Positions 55,131 through 64,000 of a stretch of 64,000 nucleotides of DNA are shown one piece after another. The notes beneath the pieces were generated by a model. The model was not told where the DNA came from. It saw nothing but the letters and a program-made list of their open reading frames with translations, and did no database searches. Position 1 is the first letter of the stretch. Each line of letters begins with the position of its first letter. Location: contig JAMLHF010000001.1 in NCBI GenBank assembly GCA_023957275.1, forward strand, positions 114,568 through 178,567, in the 5' to 3' direction. The stretch is from Lentimicrobium sp. (GTDB lineage Bacteria > Bacteroidota > Bacteroidia > Bacteroidales > Lentimicrobiaceae). The translations under genes and the position numbers were made by a program.

Positions 55131-55883
55131 ATGCAAAGCAATCAAAATTCACAAAAGCGCACTCAACTTTATTTGTTCCTCTCTGCCATTTTCCTGACAA
55201 ATGCGTTGGTTGCCGAATTTGCGGGAGTAAAGATTTTTTCGCTGGAAAAACTGCTCGGTCTGATGCCGGCACAGCTTCCTTTTTTCGGCGGGCAAAAACT
55301 CGATCTTAACCTGAGCGTGGGGGTGGTTATCTGGCCGATTGTTTTCCTGGTTTCTGACCTGATCAATGAATATTTCGGCCGCAACGGGGTGCGTAAGATC
55401 AGTTTTATAACCGCGGGGATGATTGCATGGTCATTTTTAATCGTACTGGCAGGTACAGCAGTTCCTCCGGCAGATTTCTGGCTCGACCTGAACCAAACAG
55501 ATCCAACCGGCAATCCTTTCGACATCAACTATGCCTATACCAGCATATTCAGAGCGGGGATGGGCATCATTATCGGTTCGCTGGCAGCCTTTCTCGTCAG
55601 CCAGTTGATTGATGCCTATGCCTTTCATTACCTGAAAGCCCTTACCGGCAGTAAAAAACTCTGGTTGCGGGCAACCGGCTCCACCGTGATTTCGCAGCTG
55701 ATCGACAGTTTTGTAATCCTTTTCATTGCTTTTTACCTGCTCGGAAACTGGAGTATGCAGCAGGTACTGCAGGTGGGGCTGGTGCAATACACCTATAAGG
55801 TTACGCTTGCCATTCTCTTAACTCCGCTTATTTACCTGGCCCACTGGGGTATCGACTGGTATCTTACCAAAAAGGCCGACTAA
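55131..55883 (+). CDS. yhhQ: Queuosine precursor transporter (YhhQ/VUT family)
   Basis: The 250-residue protein has six or so membrane helices and matches the YhhQ family, which imports queuine precursors such as preQ0 or preQ1 in other bacteria. FLTNALVAEFAGVKIFSLEK, FLVSDLINEYFGRNGVRKIS and GSTVISQLIDSFVILFIAFY are family landmarks. The ATG at 55131 is the first in the frame. No preQ1 riboswitch is visible in the leader. The gene stands alone, 44 bases before the regulator that follows in the same direction. Confidence 0.9.
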   Translation: MQSNQNSQKRTQLYLFLSAIFLTNALVAEFAGVKIFSLEKLLGLMPAQLPFFGGQKLDLNLSVGVVIWPIVFLVSDLINEYFGRNGVRKISFITAGMIAWSFLIVLAGTAVPPADFWLDLNQTDPTGNPFDINYAYTSIFRAGMGIIIGSLAAFLVSQLIDAYAFHYLKALTGSKKLWLRATGSTVISQLIDSFVILFIAFYLLGNWSMQQVLQVGLVQYTYKVTLAILLTPLIYLAHWGIDWYLTKKAD

Positions 55884-55926: not shown

Positions 55927-57834
55927 ATGGCCCGGAAAAACCGGAAGCAGGAAGAAATTATTCACGATTCGCATGAGCGGAGCAAAAAGTACGGGGTCAC
56001 GCGCGATCAGCAATACCCTTCACTGCTGCTCTCAGAGCAGGAAAAAGCAGTTTTGCTTGACGAAAACCGTGACCTGATCCGCGTTGCCGGACCTTTCCTC
56101 GACATGCTCTATAATTTTCTGGAAGGATCGGGATTTATCATTTTACTTACCGATAAAAACGGCTGCATTCTCAGCATAACCGGCGATCCTGAGCCCGTAA
56201 CCGCAGCCGCCGGATTGAATATGGTAGTGGGCGCGTATATGAATGAAATGAGTATAGGCACCAATGCCATGGGAACCGCGCTGAGTGAAAATTCCCCCGT
56301 TCAGGTATCTGCCTCCGAGCATTTTATAACCGCGTATCACCGTTGGACCTGTTCCGCCGCCCCTGTGCATGATGATGCCGGGAATATCATCGGTACGGTT
56401 AACCTTACCGGAGGTCGCGAACTTGTTCATCCGCACACCCTCGGCCTGGTGGTTGCAGCCGTTACTGCCATCGAAAATCAGCTGAAAAACCTGAAAAATG
56501 AGTACCGCCTGAAGGAATCAGCCAGGTACATCAGCCAGGTGATGGATTCACTATCACTGGCTGTGATGTCGGTAAGTGAAGACGGGCTGATCACATCCGC
56601 CAACAAGATGGCTCACAAATTACTGAAATATCAGAATGGCATGCTTTCGGGAAAAGCGATTGATGGTTGCATTCCCGATTATAAAAAGCTACTTCAGGCC
56701 ATTCATGAGCCGGGTATTATGCTTGATGAGGACACCCAGATCATCACCTCCTCCGGTCCTGAGTCATTCAGCCTGAACGCCTACCCGATTACCCGGCCTG
56801 ACGGGAAAATTGAAGGCATGGTCATCAGTTTCAGGGAGATGAAAAGGGTGTACAAAACCGTGAATAAATACACGGGTATGCATGCCCGGTACACTTTTGA
56901 AGACCTGATCGGCGAGAGTGATGAGCTCAGGCGGGTGACGGAATATGCAAAAACGGTATCCGACAGCCCGTCAACCGTGCTGATTACAGGGGAAAGCGGC
57001 ACCGGCAAAGAGGTAATTGCCCAATCCATGCATAACCACAGCGCCAGGGCATCGAATGGTTTTGTAGCCCTCAACTGCGGCGCCATTCCCGCCACCTGAT
57101 CAGGCAGGCTGTTTGGCTACGACGAAGGGGCGTTCACCGGAGCTTTCAAGGGCGGAAGACCGGGAAAATTCGAGCTGGCTAACGGAGGCACACTGTTTTT
57201 GGACGAAATCGGCGAAATGCCGCCCGACATGCAGGTGAAATTGCTCAGAACATTGCAGGAGGGTGTAATCACCCGTGTTGGAGGAAGCAGACAAATTCCG
57301 GTTGATGTCCGGATTATCGCAGCAACAAATAAAAATCTGAAAGAAGAAATTGAAAAAGGCACATTCCGGAGCGACCTCTTTTACCGGCTGAGTGTCATCC
57401 CGATCCATCTGCCCGCCCTGCGGGAGCGCAGAGAGGATATACCACTGCTGATCAGCTATTTCCTGAACCTGAAGTCTGTAAAACTGAAAAAGAGCACACC
57501 GGAAATCAGCAAGGATTTGTTTATCAGGCTTACCGGTTACCACTGGCCCGGCAATATCAGGGAGCTGGAAAATTTTATCGAAAAATATGTGAATCTGGGT
57601 GGAGACCTTTCCTTCGATCCTGAATCATTTTCTGCAGAAAAAAAGAGCGCATCAAAGGAATCATCCGGCAATGACAAGCCCGGAGGGACAATCCTCAACC
57701 TGGCTGAAGCTGAAAAACAAACCATTTTGTCAGCGCTCAGGGCAACAGAAAGTAACATCAGCCAGACTGCCAGATTACTGGGTATAAGCCGGAACGCGCT
57801 TTACGAAAAAATGAAGCGCCACGGCATCGGTTGA
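55927..57834 (+). pseudogene. Sigma-54-dependent activator (GAF-PAS-AAA+-Fis), interrupted by an in-frame stop
   Basis: The gene would encode about 635 residues: a GAF-like sensor (about 60-190, as in AcoR/DhaR), a PAS domain (about 200-310), an AAA+ domain and a C-terminal Fis-type helix-turn-helix (NISQTARLLGISRNALYEKM). Walker A is GESGTGKE (355-362), and past the interruption GAFTGA, the FLDEIGEM Walker B and the later AAA+ motifs are intact. A TGA at 57097-57099 ends translation after residue 390, in the segment that normally reads L-(L/I)-x-S-E before LFGY. Compared with the family this place is one codon short, as if a 1-base and a 2-base deletion had occurred close together. It is a recent pseudogene, or an assembly error. 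Its product may have regulated the redox operon downstream. Confidence 0.75.
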
Positions 57835-58117: not shown

Positions 58118-58648
58118 ATGCGCGTTGCACGAATTCAAAAAGCAGAAAAGCCTTTCAATGGTGAAGTTCCTGACCTCAACCTGCTGAACCCGCTTATAGA
58201 GAAATACAAAGAGCGCAAAGGGAATATGATCCCCCTGCTTCAGGGAGCCCAGAACATTTATGGTTATATCCCCCGCCAGGCTTTTGAGAAAATTTCAGCG
58301 GATACAGGTTTAAGTCTCAGCGAAATGTATGGCGTGGCAACATTCTACGCACAGTTCAGGCTGAAACCCGTTGGAAAACACATCATCAAAGTTTGTCACG
58401 GAACAGCCTGCCATGTTCAGAATGCCAACTCCATCACCGATGCCATTCAGGATTCATTAAAGATCAAAGATACGGAAACCACTGAAGACGGCCTGTTTAC
58501 GCTTGAATCCGTGGCCTGTCTCGGATGTTGCTCCCTGGCACCGGTCATGATGATAGGCGAAGACACTTTTGGTAAACTTACCGGAAAGGAAGCGGTGAAG
58601 ATCATCAAGGAAATCAGGTTAAAGGAAAACCGGCAGGAAGAAAAATAA
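58118..58648 (+). CDS. NuoE/HndA-like [2Fe-2S] subunit
   Basis: The 176-residue protein is a 24-kDa-type thioredoxin-fold subunit of NADH-oxidising complexes. The four cysteine ligands of the [2Fe-2S] cluster fit the usual spacing (CHGTAC, then VACLGCC). The helical N-terminal domain (LLNPLIEKYKERKGNMIPLL) is also typical. It is the first gene of the operon, 34 bases before the NuoF-like subunit, and passes electrons between that subunit and the large redox subunit. Full-length. Confidence 0.93.
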   Translation: MRVARIQKAEKPFNGEVPDLNLLNPLIEKYKERKGNMIPLLQGAQNIYGYIPRQAFEKISADTGLSLSEMYGVATFYAQFRLKPVGKHIIKVCHGTACHVQNANSITDAIQDSLKIKDTETTEDGLFTLESVACLGCCSLAPVMMIGEDTFGKLTGKEAVKIIKEIRLKENRQEEK

Positions 58649-58682
58649 ACCACTGGATTCATATTGCTTTACATCACGATAT

Positions 58683-60461
58683 ATGAGTAAAACACAGGTA
58701 ATTGTAGGATTGGGCAGTTGCGGCATCGCAGCCGGGGCCGGCAAGACCTACAACAAAATCAAGGCATTGAAAGAAGCCGAAAATCTGGACTTTGAATTGA
58801 AAAAAACCAGTTGTGTAGGCATGTGCTACCGCGAACCACTGGTTGAAATCGTGGACAGCACAGGAACTTACCTTTACGGCGAAATTGATGAGGACAGGGT
58901 ATTTGAGATTATCGACAAACATATCGTCCAGGGAAGTCCGGTAAAAGAATATGTTGTACAGTCAGATCTTTTTAAAACGCCTGAAAATGAATTTCTTGAC
59001 GAACAGGTAAAAATCGTGCTGCGCAACTGCGGACATATGGATCCTGAGAGTATTGAGGAATACCAGGCGCGTCAGGGATATGCCGCCATCCGCAAAATTG
59101 CCGGAGAGCAGATTTCAGGGGCGGATGTTATCCAAAAAGTACTTGATTCCGGAATCAGGGGCCGGGGTGGCGGTGGGTTTCCCACCGGCATGAAATGGCG
59201 GTTTGCCGCCGGCAATCCTTCTGATGAAAAATTCATCATCTGCAATGCCGATGAAGGCGATCCGGGGGCTTTTATGGACCGTTCCGTATTGGAGGGGGAT
59301 CCGCATTCCGTGCTCGAAGGAATGATTATCGGCGCATATGCCATCGGCGCCACCGAAGGAGTCATCTACTGCAGGGCTGAGTATCCCCTGGCCATCAAAC
59401 GGCTCAACATTGCCCTGGACCAGGCCCGCGAGCATGGCTATCTGGGGAAAAATATCCTTGGAATCAAAGGATTTAACTTCGACATACACATCAAAGAGGG
59501 CGCCGGCGCATTTGTCTGCGGTGAAGAAACGGCCCTGATTGCATCGGTGGAAGGTGAACGCGGGATGCCCCGGAAACGCCCTCCATTCCCGGCTGCTTCA
59601 GGATTGTGGCGCAAGCCTACCAACATCAACAATGTTGAGACTTACGCCAATATCCCCTGGATTATTCTCAACGGCCCGGAAGCCTATGCAAAATATGGCA
59701 CCGAAAAAAGCAAGGGCACCAAGGTGTTTGCCCTCGCAGGAAAAATCAGGCGCTCAGGCCTCGTTGAAGTCCCTATGGGCATCACCATCAGGGATGTAAT
59801 CTTTAAATTGGGCGGAGGAATCAAGGACAACAAAAAATTCAAGGCCGTTCAGATGGGAGGCCCCTCCGGCGGGTGTATTCCCGAATACCTGGCCGACACC
59901 ATCGTGGATTACGATTCGGTAAATGCCACAGGCGCCATCATGGGATCAGGCGGTATGGTTGTGATGGATGAAACCACCTGCATGATTGATGTGGCCAAAT
60001 TCTTTCTTGACTTTACTCAAAAGGAAAGTTGCGGAAAATGCACCTTCTGCCGCATAGGGACGAAACGGATGCTTGAAATCCTGAACCGCATCACCGAAGG
60101 AGAAGGCAGGGATGGCGACATCGAACTGCTCGAAGAACTTGCCTACCAGATCAAGGATACGTCGCTTTGCGGACTGGGACAGACAGCGCCGAATCCCGTG
60201 CTCACCACGATCCGCTATTTCCGTGATGAATATGAAGCACATATTTATCACAAAAAATGCCCGGCCAAAGTCTGCAAGAAATTACTGACTTATGAGGTAG
60301 ATCCTGAAAAATGCACCGGGTGCACGGTTTGCGCCAAAAACTGCCCGACCCATGCCATCGATGGCGACAGAAAGCAGATTCATTTCATCCGTCAGGATGC
60401 CTGTATCCGCTGTGGCGAGTGCTATTCGAGATGTAAATTCGACGCCATCAAGATCTTCTGA
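58683..60461 (+). CDS. NuoF/HndC-like NADH-binding subunit with extra iron-sulfur domains
   Basis: The 592-residue protein has an N-terminal thioredoxin-like [2Fe-2S] domain (about 1-95), the NuoF core with the NADH/FMN loops (GIRGRGGGGFPTGMKWRF, CNADEGDPGAFMDRS) and the [4Fe-4S] motif CGKCTFCRIGTKR, and a C-terminal 2[4Fe-4S] ferredoxin domain (CTGCTVCAKNC, CIRCGECYSRC). Of the four expected cysteines in the N-terminal domain only Cys13, Cys44 and Cys48 are present; the first place is Val8, so that cluster may be absent or altered. The subunit feeds or accepts electrons at NAD(H). The gene is followed 33 bases later by the large fused subunit. Confidence 0.93.
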   Translation: MSKTQVIVGLGSCGIAAGAGKTYNKIKALKEAENLDFELKKTSCVGMCYREPLVEIVDSTGTYLYGEIDEDRVFEIIDKHIVQGSPVKEYVVQSDLFKTPENEFLDEQVKIVLRNCGHMDPESIEEYQARQGYAAIRKIAGEQISGADVIQKVLDSGIRGRGGGGFPTGMKWRFAAGNPSDEKFIICNADEGDPGAFMDRSVLEGDPHSVLEGMIIGAYAIGATEGVIYCRAEYPLAIKRLNIALDQAREHGYLGKNILGIKGFNFDIHIKEGAGAFVCGEETALIASVEGERGMPRKRPPFPAASGLWRKPTNINNVETYANIPWIILNGPEAYAKYGTEKSKGTKVFALAGKIRRSGLVEVPMGITIRDVIFKLGGGIKDNKKFKAVQMGGPSGGCIPEYLADTIVDYDSVNATGAIMGSGGMVVMDETTCMIDVAKFFLDFTQKESCGKCTFCRIGTKRMLEILNRITEGEGRDGDIELLEELAYQIKDTSLCGLGQTAPNPVLTTIRYFRDEYEAHIYHKKCPAKVCKKLLTYEVDPEKCTGCTVCAKNCPTHAIDGDRKQIHFIRQDACIRCGECYSRCKFDAIKIF

Positions 60462-60494
60462 ACCGGCTATTTTTAATAAAAGCAAGAGAATCCA

Positions 60495-63400
60495 ATGAAG
60501 AATAAAGTCAACATTATTATAAACGATCAGTTAGCAAAGGGTTACGAAGGTGAAACCATACTTACCGCAGCCCGCAGGCTGGGCATCGAAATTCCAACCC
60601 TTTGCGACGATCCCCGTCTTGAACCTTTTACATCCTGCTATGTCTGTGTGGTAGAGGTTGAAGGTATGCGCGGCATGCAGCCGTCCTGCTCCACACGCAT
60701 CGCCGAAGGAATGAAGATAAAAACCCACAGCGAGAAAGTGCTGAAAGCAAGGAAAACGGCACTTGAGCTCATGCTCAGCAACCATTACGCCGATTGCGTG
60801 GGGCCGTGCAAGCAGACCTGTCCGGCCGGGGTAGATGTTCAGGGGTATATTTCACTGATAGAGAAGGGATTATATAATGATGCCGTGGCAGTTATCAAGG
60901 AAACAAATCCGCTGCCGGCCATCTGCGGACGTGTATGCGTGCGTCCCTGCGAAGTAGCCTGCCGCCGTAACCTACTCGACGAGGGTGCACCCGTTGGCAT
61001 CGACTACCTGAAACGGTTTGCTTCCGATATCGACCTCGATTCACCCGATAAATTCAAACCGCACATTCATCCCGACACCGGAAAACGTGTTGCCGTTATC
61101 GGTGCAGGACCGGGCGGACTTTCAGCAGCATTTTTCCTGAGAAAAGAAGGGCATGCGGTGGATATTTATGAAGCCAGCCCGGCCGCCGGCGGATGGCTGA
61201 GGTATGGTATCCCCGAATACCGGCTGCCCAACGACCTGTTGCAGCGCGAAGTGGATAACATCACCGAAATGGGGGTAAATATCCACTATAACAAACGGCT
61301 TGGCGAAAACATCAGTTACAGGGATCTGAGGTTAAAATATAACGCAACCATTCTTGCCATCGGCTCTCAGAAAGGTACCGGGATTGGGTGCGAAGGCGAC
61401 GATGCTGACGGCGTGTTTGCAGGTACTGACTTTCTGAAGGCGCTGGAGTTAAATAAATCCGACAAACCTGATTTCACAGGAAAAACGGTAGTTGTTGTCG
61501 GGGGTGGCAATACCGCCATGGACTGCTGCCGTACTTCGCGCAGGCTCGGCGCTTCAAAGGTTTACGTAATATACCGCCGTACCGAAAAGGAGATGCCGGC
61601 CAATCCGATCGAGATCCACGAATCAAAACTGGAAGGCGTAGAATATATGTTCCTGACGCTTCCGCTGAAAGTTAAAAAAGATGAAAAGGGCCGAATTAAA
61701 GGGATGATCTGCATCCGCATGGAGCTGGGCGAACCTGATGCTTCAGGAAGGCGCAGACCGGTACCGGTTCCCGACAGCGAATTTGAGATTGACGTGGATA
61801 TCGCCCTGGCAGCAATTGGCCAGAAAACCGATATACATTTCCTGAATGATATCAATTCAAATGAAACCACAGGACAGCTTGCCGCAAACAAGTGGGGAGA
61901 TCTGGATGCCGATAAAAATACCCTGCAAACGGGCATCCCTTCAATGTTTGCCGCAGGTGACGGGGTCACCGGCCCGGCTACCCTGATACAGGCCATTGCC
62001 CAGGCCCGGATCGCAGCGCTGAGTTGTCATCAGTACCTTACCGGTCAGCCGGTGAAGCCGCGCAAAAAAGAGTTTATCAGCAAACGGGAAAATTTCCGGG
62101 AGCAAACTCCGGCTGATTTTGCCGGAAAGTTCGCTCGTCAGCTCAGGCATGAAATGCCGGTGCTGGATCCTGATCAGCGCAATAACTTTAAAGAAGTTGA
62201 GCTGGGCTATGAAAACGAAGCGGTTGCCGGGCAGGAAGCTGCCCGTTGCCTCGAGTGTGGCTGCACCGCCTATTTTGACTGCGATCTGAAAAAATACTCC
62301 ACCGAATACGAAGCGGAGCAAAAGCACTTCGAAGGTGATCATCGCGAGTATGAAGTAGATTTCAGACATCCCTACATCGAAATTGACAACAACAAGTGCA
62401 TACTCTGCGCCCGATGCGTGAGAATCTGCCACGAGGTGGTCGGTGCCAACGCCCTGGGGCTGGTAAACCGGGGATTTGATACCTATGTAGCTCCAAGCAT
62501 GGGCAACTCGCTGAGCGACACCCAATGTGAATCCTGCGGGCTCTGCCTTTCCACCTGCCCTACCGGCGCCCTTTCCGAAAACAAACTGTTTAAGCCGGGA
62601 CCGGTAAAGACTGAAAGTTTCAACACCATCTGTAACTACTGTTCCGTGGGATGCACCCTGGAGGTTCATCACCGCAACGGCTTTGTGATGGAGGTTAAGG
62701 GGGCAGAAGGCCTTGTAAACCAGGACGGAAACATCTGCCGGTACGGAAAATTCGGTTATCAGTACCTGAATGACCGCAGCCGCCTTACCGTTCCGATGCT
62801 GAAAAAGAACGGAAAGTATGAGCCCATTGAATGGGACGAAGCATTTGAAATCCTGGAAGAAAAGATCAGGTCATCTGTGCCGGAAGAATCTGCATTTTTT
62901 GCCGGGGCCCGTCTTACCAATGAGGAACAATACCTGGTGCAGAAGCTGGCGCGCGGTGGCGCAAAAACCAACAATATCGGAAGTTTCCATTACCTGGGAC
63001 GTGGCACAGGGTATACAAAGCTTACCAAGGCCAACCTGCCGTTCCCCGAGCTTTCCGAATCGAGCCGTGTCTACCTGCTGGGGGCAGAAGTGAGCCGCGA
63101 CAATGCCGTTGCCGGTTTTATGATCTGGAATAACCGGAAGATAAATGGTATTCCGGTTGAGGTTATCACTGCGCCTGACAAAAGTACTTCGGAGCATAAA
63201 GCCGATAAACTTATCAGGATAAAATCCTATTACCATTTCGTGAAAGCGGTGAACCATTATCTGCTTGCACACAAACTGGAGAATCAACTCTTTATAAGAG
63301 ACCTGATCGATAATTTCGACGAATACAAGTCACATACACTGCGTGAATCTTTTTCAGACCTGGTAAAGGCATCGGGTGTTGACCGTGAAGAAACCATCAT

Positions 63401-64000
63401 CCGGTTTGCGGTAGATTACAACAATGAAAAAGCGGCGGTCATTGTTTTTTCCGAAAAGGAATTGTCGGGACGCACCTGTTCCGAAATCTTCAACCTTGCC
63501 TGCATCACCGGCAAACACGGGAAAACCGGCAGCGGGCTGATGTTGCTGAAAGAAAAAAACAACAGCCATGGCCTGCACGACATGGGCGTAATGTCAAACC
63601 TGGGCCCGGGGGCCTGCGACTGGGAAGACCCCATCCTCAGACAATCGTTCGAGCACAGCTGGAACTGCGGGGAACTGCCGTCAGGAAACGGTTGCACCCT
63701 GCACGACATGCAAAGCGGCACATACAGGAACCTGTTTATTTTCGGTGAAGACCCTGTGGGATGCGCCGTAAACCAGGAGGAAGTCAGGAATTGGTTTTCC
63801 AAAGCCGGTTTCGTAATGGTGCAGGATTATTTCATGACCGAAACGGCAAAAATGGCTGACCTTGTATTACCTGCTTCACTACCCTGGGAGACCGGAGGCA
63901 CCTTTACCAACAGTCAGAAAGTGATCCAGAAAATCGACAAGGCATTGGAACCTGCGATTCAATATGAAGGATGGAAACAAACCGATAAGCTGCTTTCGCG
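60495..64000 (+). CDS. NuoG/formate-dehydrogenase-like large subunit fused to a GltD/NfnB-like module (C-terminus outside window)
   Basis: The frame is open from the ATG at 60495 to the window end, giving 1168 residues. Domains in order: [2Fe-2S] ferredoxin (Cys37, 48, 51, 65); a GltD/NfnB-like flavin module with cysteine clusters (101-156), FAD loop GAGPGG (203-208) and NADPH loop GGGNTA (336-341), to about 520; two [4Fe-4S] ferredoxin sites (Cys635-645 and Cys678-688); then a molybdopterin-oxidoreductase-type part with its own [4Fe-4S] ligands (Cys713, 716, 720, 748). At the place where formate dehydrogenases bind molybdenum through Cys or Sec, the segment NNIGSFHYLGRGTGY has none (Gly835 at the aligned place), as in NuoG. 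So it is not an ordinary formate dehydrogenase. With the NuoE/F genes it suggests an NADH/NADPH/ferredoxin electron-transfer complex. The end of the protein is not seen. Confidence 0.88.
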   Translation, partial: MKNKVNIIINDQLAKGYEGETILTAARRLGIEIPTLCDDPRLEPFTSCYVCVVEVEGMRGMQPSCSTRIAEGMKIKTHSEKVLKARKTALELMLSNHYADCVGPCKQTCPAGVDVQGYISLIEKGLYNDAVAVIKETNPLPAICGRVCVRPCEVACRRNLLDEGAPVGIDYLKRFASDIDLDSPDKFKPHIHPDTGKRVAVIGAGPGGLSAAFFLRKEGHAVDIYEASPAAGGWLRYGIPEYRLPNDLLQREVDNITEMGVNIHYNKRLGENISYRDLRLKYNATILAIGSQKGTGIGCEGDDADGVFAGTDFLKALELNKSDKPDFTGKTVVVVGGGNTAMDCCRTSRRLGASKVYVIYRRTEKEMPANPIEIHESKLEGVEYMFLTLPLKVKKDEKGRIKGMICIRMELGEPDASGRRRPVPVPDSEFEIDVDIALAAIGQKTDIHFLNDINSNETTGQLAANKWGDLDADKNTLQTGIPSMFAAGDGVTGPATLIQAIAQARIAALSCHQYLTGQPVKPRKKEFISKRENFREQTPADFAGKFARQLRHEMPVLDPDQRNNFKEVELGYENEAVAGQEAARCLECGCTAYFDCDLKKYSTEYEAEQKHFEGDHREYEVDFRHPYIEIDNNKCILCARCVRICHEVVGANALGLVNRGFDTYVAPSMGNSLSDTQCESCGLCLSTCPTGALSENKLFKPGPVKTESFNTICNYCSVGCTLEVHHRNGFVMEVKGAEGLVNQDGNICRYGKFGYQYLNDRSRLTVPMLKKNGKYEPIEWDEAFEILEEKIRSSVPEESAFFAGARLTNEEQYLVQKLARGGAKTNNIGSFHYLGRGTGYTKLTKANLPFPELSESSRVYLLGAEVSRDNAVAGFMIWNNRKINGIPVEVITAPDKSTSEHKADKLIRIKSYYHFVKAVNHYLLAHKLENQLFIRDLIDNFDEYKSHTLRESFSDLVKASGVDREETIIRFAVDYNNEKAAVIVFSEKELSGRTCSEIFNLACITGKHGKTGSGLMLLKEKNNSHGLHDMGVMSNLGPGACDWEDPILRQSFEHSWNCGELPSGNGCTLHDMQSGTYRNLFIFGEDPVGCAVNQEEVRNWFSKAGFVMVQDYFMTETAKMADLVLPASLPWETGGTFTNSQKVIQKIDKALEPAIQYEGWKQTDKLLS

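Follow-up and report, generated by a model that had tools for sequence, protein, structure and literature searches.

A predicted Stn-type electron-bifurcating transhydrogenase in Lentimicrobium-like Bacteroidales, and free-standing relatives of its inactive tail

What is a formate dehydrogenase-like domain for, once it has lost the residues that hold its metal? Three genes at the end of a 64,000-nucleotide stretch of a Lentimicrobium genome (the window; contig JAMLHF010000001.1, assembly GCA_023957275.1) raise this question. They lie head to tail on the plus strand with intergenic gaps of 34 and 33 bases. An earlier note, made from the DNA letters alone, described them as a NuoE-like gene, a NuoF-like gene, and a NuoG/GltD/FdhF-like fusion; open reading frames and Pfam matches confirm this. 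Judged by sequence, the genes are very probably stnA, stnB, and stnC of an Stn-type (Nfn-Bfu type 1) electron-bifurcating transhydrogenase in a Lentimicrobium-like member of the Bacteroidales. Domain order, key residues, operon arrangement, nearest solved relatives, and the absence of a molybdenum ligand are all seen directly.

Three subunits and their solved relatives

StnA matches Pfam 2Fe-2S_thioredx (E 6e-51); its likely [2Fe-2S] ligands, by the usual motif, are Cys93, 98, 134, and 138. StnB matches Complex1_51K, NADH_4Fe-4S, and two C-terminal Fer4 families. It comprises an N-terminal thioredoxin-like part, a flavin mononucleotide (FMN)/NADH domain, a [4Fe-4S] site, and a C-terminal 2x[4Fe-4S] ferredoxin domain, with Cys526 and Cys531 forming a probable Zn-type linker. 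StnC contains Fer2_4 (residues 3-79), Fer4_20 (101-180), Pyr_redox_2 (198-504), Fer4_Nqo3 (626-693), Molybdop_Fe4S4 (709-759), and Molybdopterin (763-1154). Motif spacing suggests that its GltD module is inserted within the NuoG His-Cys3 cluster motif: His97-x3-Cys101, then GltD, then Cys590-x5-Cys596.

For all three proteins alike, the three best matches in the PDB are solved Stn/Nfn-ABC complexes: 9bov_C, 9n5u_C, and 8oh5_A for StnA; 9n5u_B, 9bov_B, and 8oh5_B for StnB. The earlier proposal of an electron-bifurcating NADH/NADPH/ferredoxin transhydrogenase related to Stn is the best explanation. StnABC of Sporomusa ovata (PDB 8oh5/8oh9; PMC7483475, PMC10482914) likewise has three subunits, with identical domain order. 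Its StnC, of 1172 residues, joins an Fe-hydrogenase-like [2Fe-2S] part, GltD, ferredoxin clusters, and an inactive FdhF domain (PMC10482914). The earlier note was therefore wrong to set the fused layout apart from Stn, and a distinct architecture is ruled out by that paper and by alignment to S. ovata StnC.

S. ovata StnC is the second-best PDB match of window StnC and shares with it both the inactive tail and the essential Lys170, which corresponds to Lys173 and is lysine in all 35 aligned StnC proteins (the window's own, 33 Bacteroidales-type relatives, and one from Aminicenantes). Its Arg239 corresponds to Arg243, arginine in 35 of 35; in StnB, E184 and D186 are retained as E191 and D193. 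Nfn-ABC of Caldicellulosiruptor saccharolyticus (PDB 9bov/9bp5) is the best match of StnC and StnA and the second for StnB; identity in StnC is about 35%. Nfn-Bfu (NfnABC) of Thermococcus sibiricus (PDB 9n5u/9n5v; PMC9304861) shares the BfuBC core and a GltD-type BfuA; its BfuA differs in its length (963 residues), shorter tail, and one fewer cluster.

NfnAB shares the GltD/NfnB-like FAD-NADPH module (FAD, flavin adenine dinucleotide), and the StnC matches for that module include 5jca_L and 4ylf_B. Unlike NfnAB, the window operon has a HydBC-like bifurcating core and no NfnA subunit; an NfnA-type FAD/NAD partner is absent from the three window genes and from the next genes on contig C17, the genes examined. 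(An NfnA-like candidate picked by eye at C107:5618-6568 was dropped, having no Pfam match.) The H-cluster domain (PF02906) of the HydABC A subunit is absent from the window proteins by Pfam. A literature search found nothing for NfnABC as such or for Lentimicrobium together with transhydrogenase.

Work on the S. ovata enzyme suggests the electron path, the bifurcation, and its direction. NADPH would bind at the FAD in the GltD-like part of StnC and reduce it, and the StnC clusters would carry electrons from there to the FMN of StnB. Here the flow would split. One electron pair would go to NAD+; the other, by way of the StnB and StnA [2Fe-2S] clusters, would pass to the ferredoxin domain at the StnB C terminus, and so to ferredoxin. 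In the cell the enzyme probably runs mainly in reverse, with NADH and reduced ferredoxin as donors and NADPH as product. The genome encodes RnfC and three HydABC-type hydrogenases, and PntB has no match in it; together these observations make NADPH supply from NADH and reduced ferredoxin the likely role. The FdhF-like tail of StnC would be non-catalytic; in S. ovata StnABC it is needed for assembly.

An inactive formate dehydrogenase site

The active-site residues of Escherichia coli FdhH are Sec140, His141, Arg333, and Lys44. Their places in StnC come from an FdhH alignment carried over to the window protein by a second alignment. Sec140-His141 align to the motif NNIGSFHYLGRG, Gly835-Arg836 of window StnC; Arg333 aligns to Lys1019, and Lys44 to Tyr750. 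Among the 35 StnC proteins, position 835 is G in 18, N in 13, T in 2, and E and L in 1 each. It is never Cys, in agreement with the earlier note that the molybdenum-binding Cys or Sec is missing. Position 836 is R in 24; position 1019 is K in 33 and R in 2; and position 750 is Y in 28, F in 5, Q in 1, and K in 1. The tail retains one [4Fe-4S] site, with likely ligands Cys713, 716, 720, and 748. PF01568, the carboxy-terminal molybdopterin-dinucleotide domain, has no match at E 0.001 in the window StnC, which is cut short, nor in three complete free-standing tails that were scanned (see below).

Could the operon nevertheless encode a catalytically active formate dehydrogenase linked to NAD(P), akin to FdsABG, with an unusual metal ligand? 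The tail folds like FdhH and matches TIGR01591 (Fdh-alpha), but at 277 bits against a cut-off of 666; all four FdhH residues are replaced, the carboxy-terminal pterin domain was not found, and S. ovata Stn is reported not to oxidize formate (PMC7483475). Such an enzyme is hardly credible. Equally implausible is a diaphorase or NADPH module whose partner is a distinct enzyme: a hydrogenase, complex I, or a peroxide reductase of the rubrerythrin type. Here the neighbours lend some support. A gene for a rubrerythrin-like protein of 151 to 160 residues lies directly 3' of stnC in 16 of 48 named loci (e.g., L040:11868-12323; 52 of the 54 named loci hold the stnC end, and 48 of these extend 700 bases downstream); in G124 a rubrerythrin-ferredoxin-tail fusion adjoins stnC; and downstream, on the other strand, there is a group-B [FeFe]-hydrogenase gene at distances from 1.2 kb (L031) to about 6 kb. 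However, in the window's genus stnC was not found to be followed by a rubrerythrin-like gene, and the three HydABC-type hydrogenases of this genome come with NuoE/NuoF-like genes of their own.

A simple, non-bifurcating NADPH:NAD+ oxidoreductase of the same build deserves more weight, yet it too is improbable. Bifurcation is not readable from sequence alone, and valine occupies the place of S. ovata Cys114. Against this, window StnB retains the features that set bifurcating BfuB apart from non-bifurcating homologues: the C-terminal ferredoxin domain, the N-terminal cysteines, the linker cysteines, and a loop. Window StnB has both the N-terminal thioredoxin-like part and the C-terminal two-[4Fe-4S] ferredoxin domain of BfuB, which non-bifurcating homologues are described as lacking.

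Three observations weigh against a bifurcating Stn enzyme with the role proposed here. Cys114 of S. ovata StnC is Val in 34 of the 35 aligned proteins, the window's included, and Ala in one; PMC10482914 calls this residue helpful but neither strictly conserved nor defining, and reports two other homologues with Val or Ile. The AlphaFold model of StnC is only moderate (predicted local distance difference test score, pLDDT, 70.3), and is poor at residues 91-182 and 525-704. Finally, PntB does not avoid Stn across the order: it occurs in 29 of 128 genomes with fused StnC and in 68 of 257 with neither form of the tail (Fisher p 0.46). An Stn-type bifurcating transhydrogenase nonetheless remains the preferred reading.

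Tails without the enzyme

Nineteen genomes of the genus fall into two groups. Eleven contain StnB (85-100% identity; in two pieces in G004) and the first 694 residues of StnC (at least 84%). In the other eight, no match exceeds 62% identity for StnB or 37% for the StnC front; each instead carries one gene, of about 523-597 codons, whose product is 49-58% identical to the StnC tail alone (the gene of G017 reaches its contig end). Five more genomes from three further families (f58, f34, and f73) bring the free-standing tails to 13 genomes. G004 is counted as an Stn genome. Its split stnC (two frames) and stnB (two pieces), together with the presence of PntB, might pass for Stn decay, but were not used as such, since other G004 genes also are split.

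Most free tails of the genus stand near neighbours of the old operon. In the window, a Vut_1 transporter gene lies upstream of the operon (55131-55883). Past stnC on C17, the opposite strand encodes a protein without Pfam match, a beta-eliminating lyase (threonine-aldolase type), and two carboxylases. In G010 and G017 the Vut_1 gene adjoins the free tail, and in G011 it is three small frames off; the lyase gene adjoins the tail in G018, G014, and G005 and is two genes off in G011. Neither neighbour was seen in G003 or G016, where a CinA-type gene lies upstream, as in G018, G014, and G005. (Apart from genes that were Pfam-scanned, these neighbours were identified by eye.) This position agrees with loss of the enzyme from the old locus.

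Where measurable, the free tails are under purifying selection: the ratio of nonsynonymous to synonymous substitution rates (dN/dS) is 0.12, 0.12, and 0.08 for three pairs, the last with near-saturated dS, and 0.06-0.09 for three fused pairs. Two further free-tail pairs are saturated. In a tree of 71 tails, the free tails of the genus fall within the genus, beside a fused protein (L033) with modest support (84/96), and the G090 free tail (f73) is sister to a fused protein (100/99). Fused and free labels require three changes on this tree, two of them forced by the starred branches. A single clade of all 13 was rejected in the approximately unbiased (AU) test (p-AU 1.1e-5), for a group named after the tree was seen and with some long rows.

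Three of the 13 free tails (L115, L116, and L118) have lost the [4Fe-4S] cysteines also. They retain the loops NN..G..(D/E)MG, GED, and VQD...T.TA..A...LP, which are common to active formate dehydrogenases and presumably line the pterin pocket. The free tail L120 reaches 190 bits with an active formate dehydrogenase (9t1s), against 100 bits with the S. ovata tail. No free-standing tail was found elsewhere in the phylum among 395 genomes drawn. Four of these matched at E 1e-50: the window's own genome (fused), G585 (a frame of 1219 residues), and two genomes with frames of 939 and 954 residues (29% identity), which are probably real formate dehydrogenases.

The S. ovata paper regards the FdhF domain as a non-functional remnant for electron transfer, and leaves the role of the domain and its clusters open. 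We lean slightly toward a different view: that the dead StnC tail has a function of its own, independent of the transhydrogenase; that, once stnA, stnB, and the front two thirds of stnC had been lost, it became a gene by itself on more than one occasion (by three or four changes on the tree); and that purifying selection has kept it. The role of the free tail may be to bind a nucleotide or a protein partner and to help balance NAD(P)H, as a sensor or as a scaffold. A literature search of limited coverage for free tails matched only PMC10482914, apart from a Blautia study.

The unrelated transhydrogenase gene pntB is present in 10 of the 13 free-tail genomes. Within the genus, PntB occurs in 7 of 8 free-tail genomes versus 2 of 11 Stn genomes (G004 and G008; Fisher p 0.0055, uncorrected for kinship); the free-tail genome without it, G017, is 72% complete. 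In the order sample PntB occurs in 5 of 7 free-tail genomes, compared with 29 of the 128 that have fused StnC (p 0.011); the two free-tail genomes that lack it (G164 and G051) both belong to f34. The pntB and tail genes lie within 15 kb of each other in 8 of the 34 order genomes that have PntB and a fused or free tail: six with fused StnC, and both f58 free-tail genomes, where the distance is 1.7 kb. The gene in between is of PntA/alanine-dehydrogenase type in G272, and divergent from the free tail. This distribution and proximity suggest that Stn and PntAB are functionally linked, and that one transhydrogenase took the place of the other, leaving the tail. Strict alternation of PntAB and Stn across the order was also considered; the order-wide counts given above do not bear it out.

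Locus, neighbours, and distribution

The window and contig C1 of this 4.4-Mb genome stop at the same base, which cuts stnC at residue 1168. The earlier note had called for sequence past position 64000; the C-terminal part of the gene was found on C17:2-253 (83 residues, 98% identical to relative G001), so that about 66 to 83 residues lie beyond the cut. Complete relatives mostly have 1215-1245 residues, with longer frames in three. The note also had asked about a downstream formate dehydrogenase or hydrogenase that would make the fusion an accessory subunit. Neither is part of the stnABC operon: on C17 a fragment with an Fe_hyd_lg_C domain starts 5.7 kb past stnC, and in relative L031 a group B1 [FeFe]-hydrogenase gene (NCBIfam) lies 1.2 kb past it, behind the lyase gene, both on the opposite strand.

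Coordinates of the operon, its StnC domains, and related features
Feature	Position	Strand	Description
stnA	58118-58648	+	open reading frame of 176 residues; NuoE/HydC/BfuC-like, thioredoxin-fold [2Fe-2S] subunit
stnB	58683-60461	+	open reading frame of 592 residues; NuoF/HydB/BfuB-like subunit
stnC	60495-64000	+	open-ended frame, 1168 of about 1234 residues; Fer2/GltD/2xFer4/dead FdhF-like fusion
stnC [2Fe-2S] domain, residues 3-79	60501-60731	+	Pfam Fer2_4, E 1e-18
stnC GltD/NfnB-like FAD-NADPH module, residues 101-518	60795-62048	+	
stnC two-cluster ferredoxin domain, residues 626-693	62370-62573	+	Pfam Fer4_Nqo3
stnC FdhF-like tail, residues 709 onward	62619-64000	+	one [4Fe-4S] site kept, molybdenum site lost
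GAF-PAS-sigma54 activator gene	55927-57834	+	upstream of operon; interrupted near 57099
Free-standing tail genes	L019-L026, L114-L118, L120-L127		
f58 free tails 1.7 kb from PntB gene (PF02233)	L117:8249-9826; L114:593-2212	-; -	

The nearest named relatives are in Lentimicrobium and other Bacteroidales genomes. Among 42 named relatives with 2.6 kb of upstream sequence, 34 have both stnA and stnB directly upstream of stnC; of the eight misses, L040 at least results from the distance rule alone. Promoter and terminator scans gave signals no higher than in shuffled sequence. The GAF-PAS-sigma54 gene is a possible regulator of the operon. It is a single open reading frame of 636 residues in relative L063, and its break in the window reflects decay or a sequence error. 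A gene similar to it by eye is still nearby in G011 (L122:14363-16270), which lacks stnB.

Other neighbours recur after stnC. The rubrerythrin-like gene is one gene further away, by eye, in L038, L041, L044, L051, and L068. In G124 (L119:952-11035), stnC is followed by genes for a zinc-ribbon-like protein (weak matches) and for NfnA-like and NfnB-like proteins; further on come a 757-residue rubrerythrin/ferredoxin-cluster/dead-tail fusion and a second rubrerythrin-like gene. A protein of about 990 residues, combining response-regulator and PPDK_N domains by Pfam, is encoded after stnC at L066:12195-15164; similar proteins were seen by eye after stnC or near a free tail in L055, L048, L054, L120, L123, and L117.

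Across the order, the tail finds matches at E 1e-60 in 136 of 393 genomes drawn. By open-frame length 128 of them look fused, the GltD part not being confirmed in each: 119 have frames of at least 1190 residues, and the other nine, the window's own included, have 709-1173. (One counted as fused, G314, is only 31% identical.) Seven are free-standing tails of 527-567 residues; G156, cut by a contig end, was left out of this sorting. The table of the first Stn paper includes Firmicutes, Proteobacteria, Synergistetes, and a Thermococcus; Bacteroidetes are mentioned in the Bfu paper.

Together, these results extend a known enzyme, Stn, to a large group of Bacteroidales. Moreover, the free tails offer a natural experiment on the purpose of the FdhF domain: lineages that dropped the enzyme have kept the domain, often along with PntAB.

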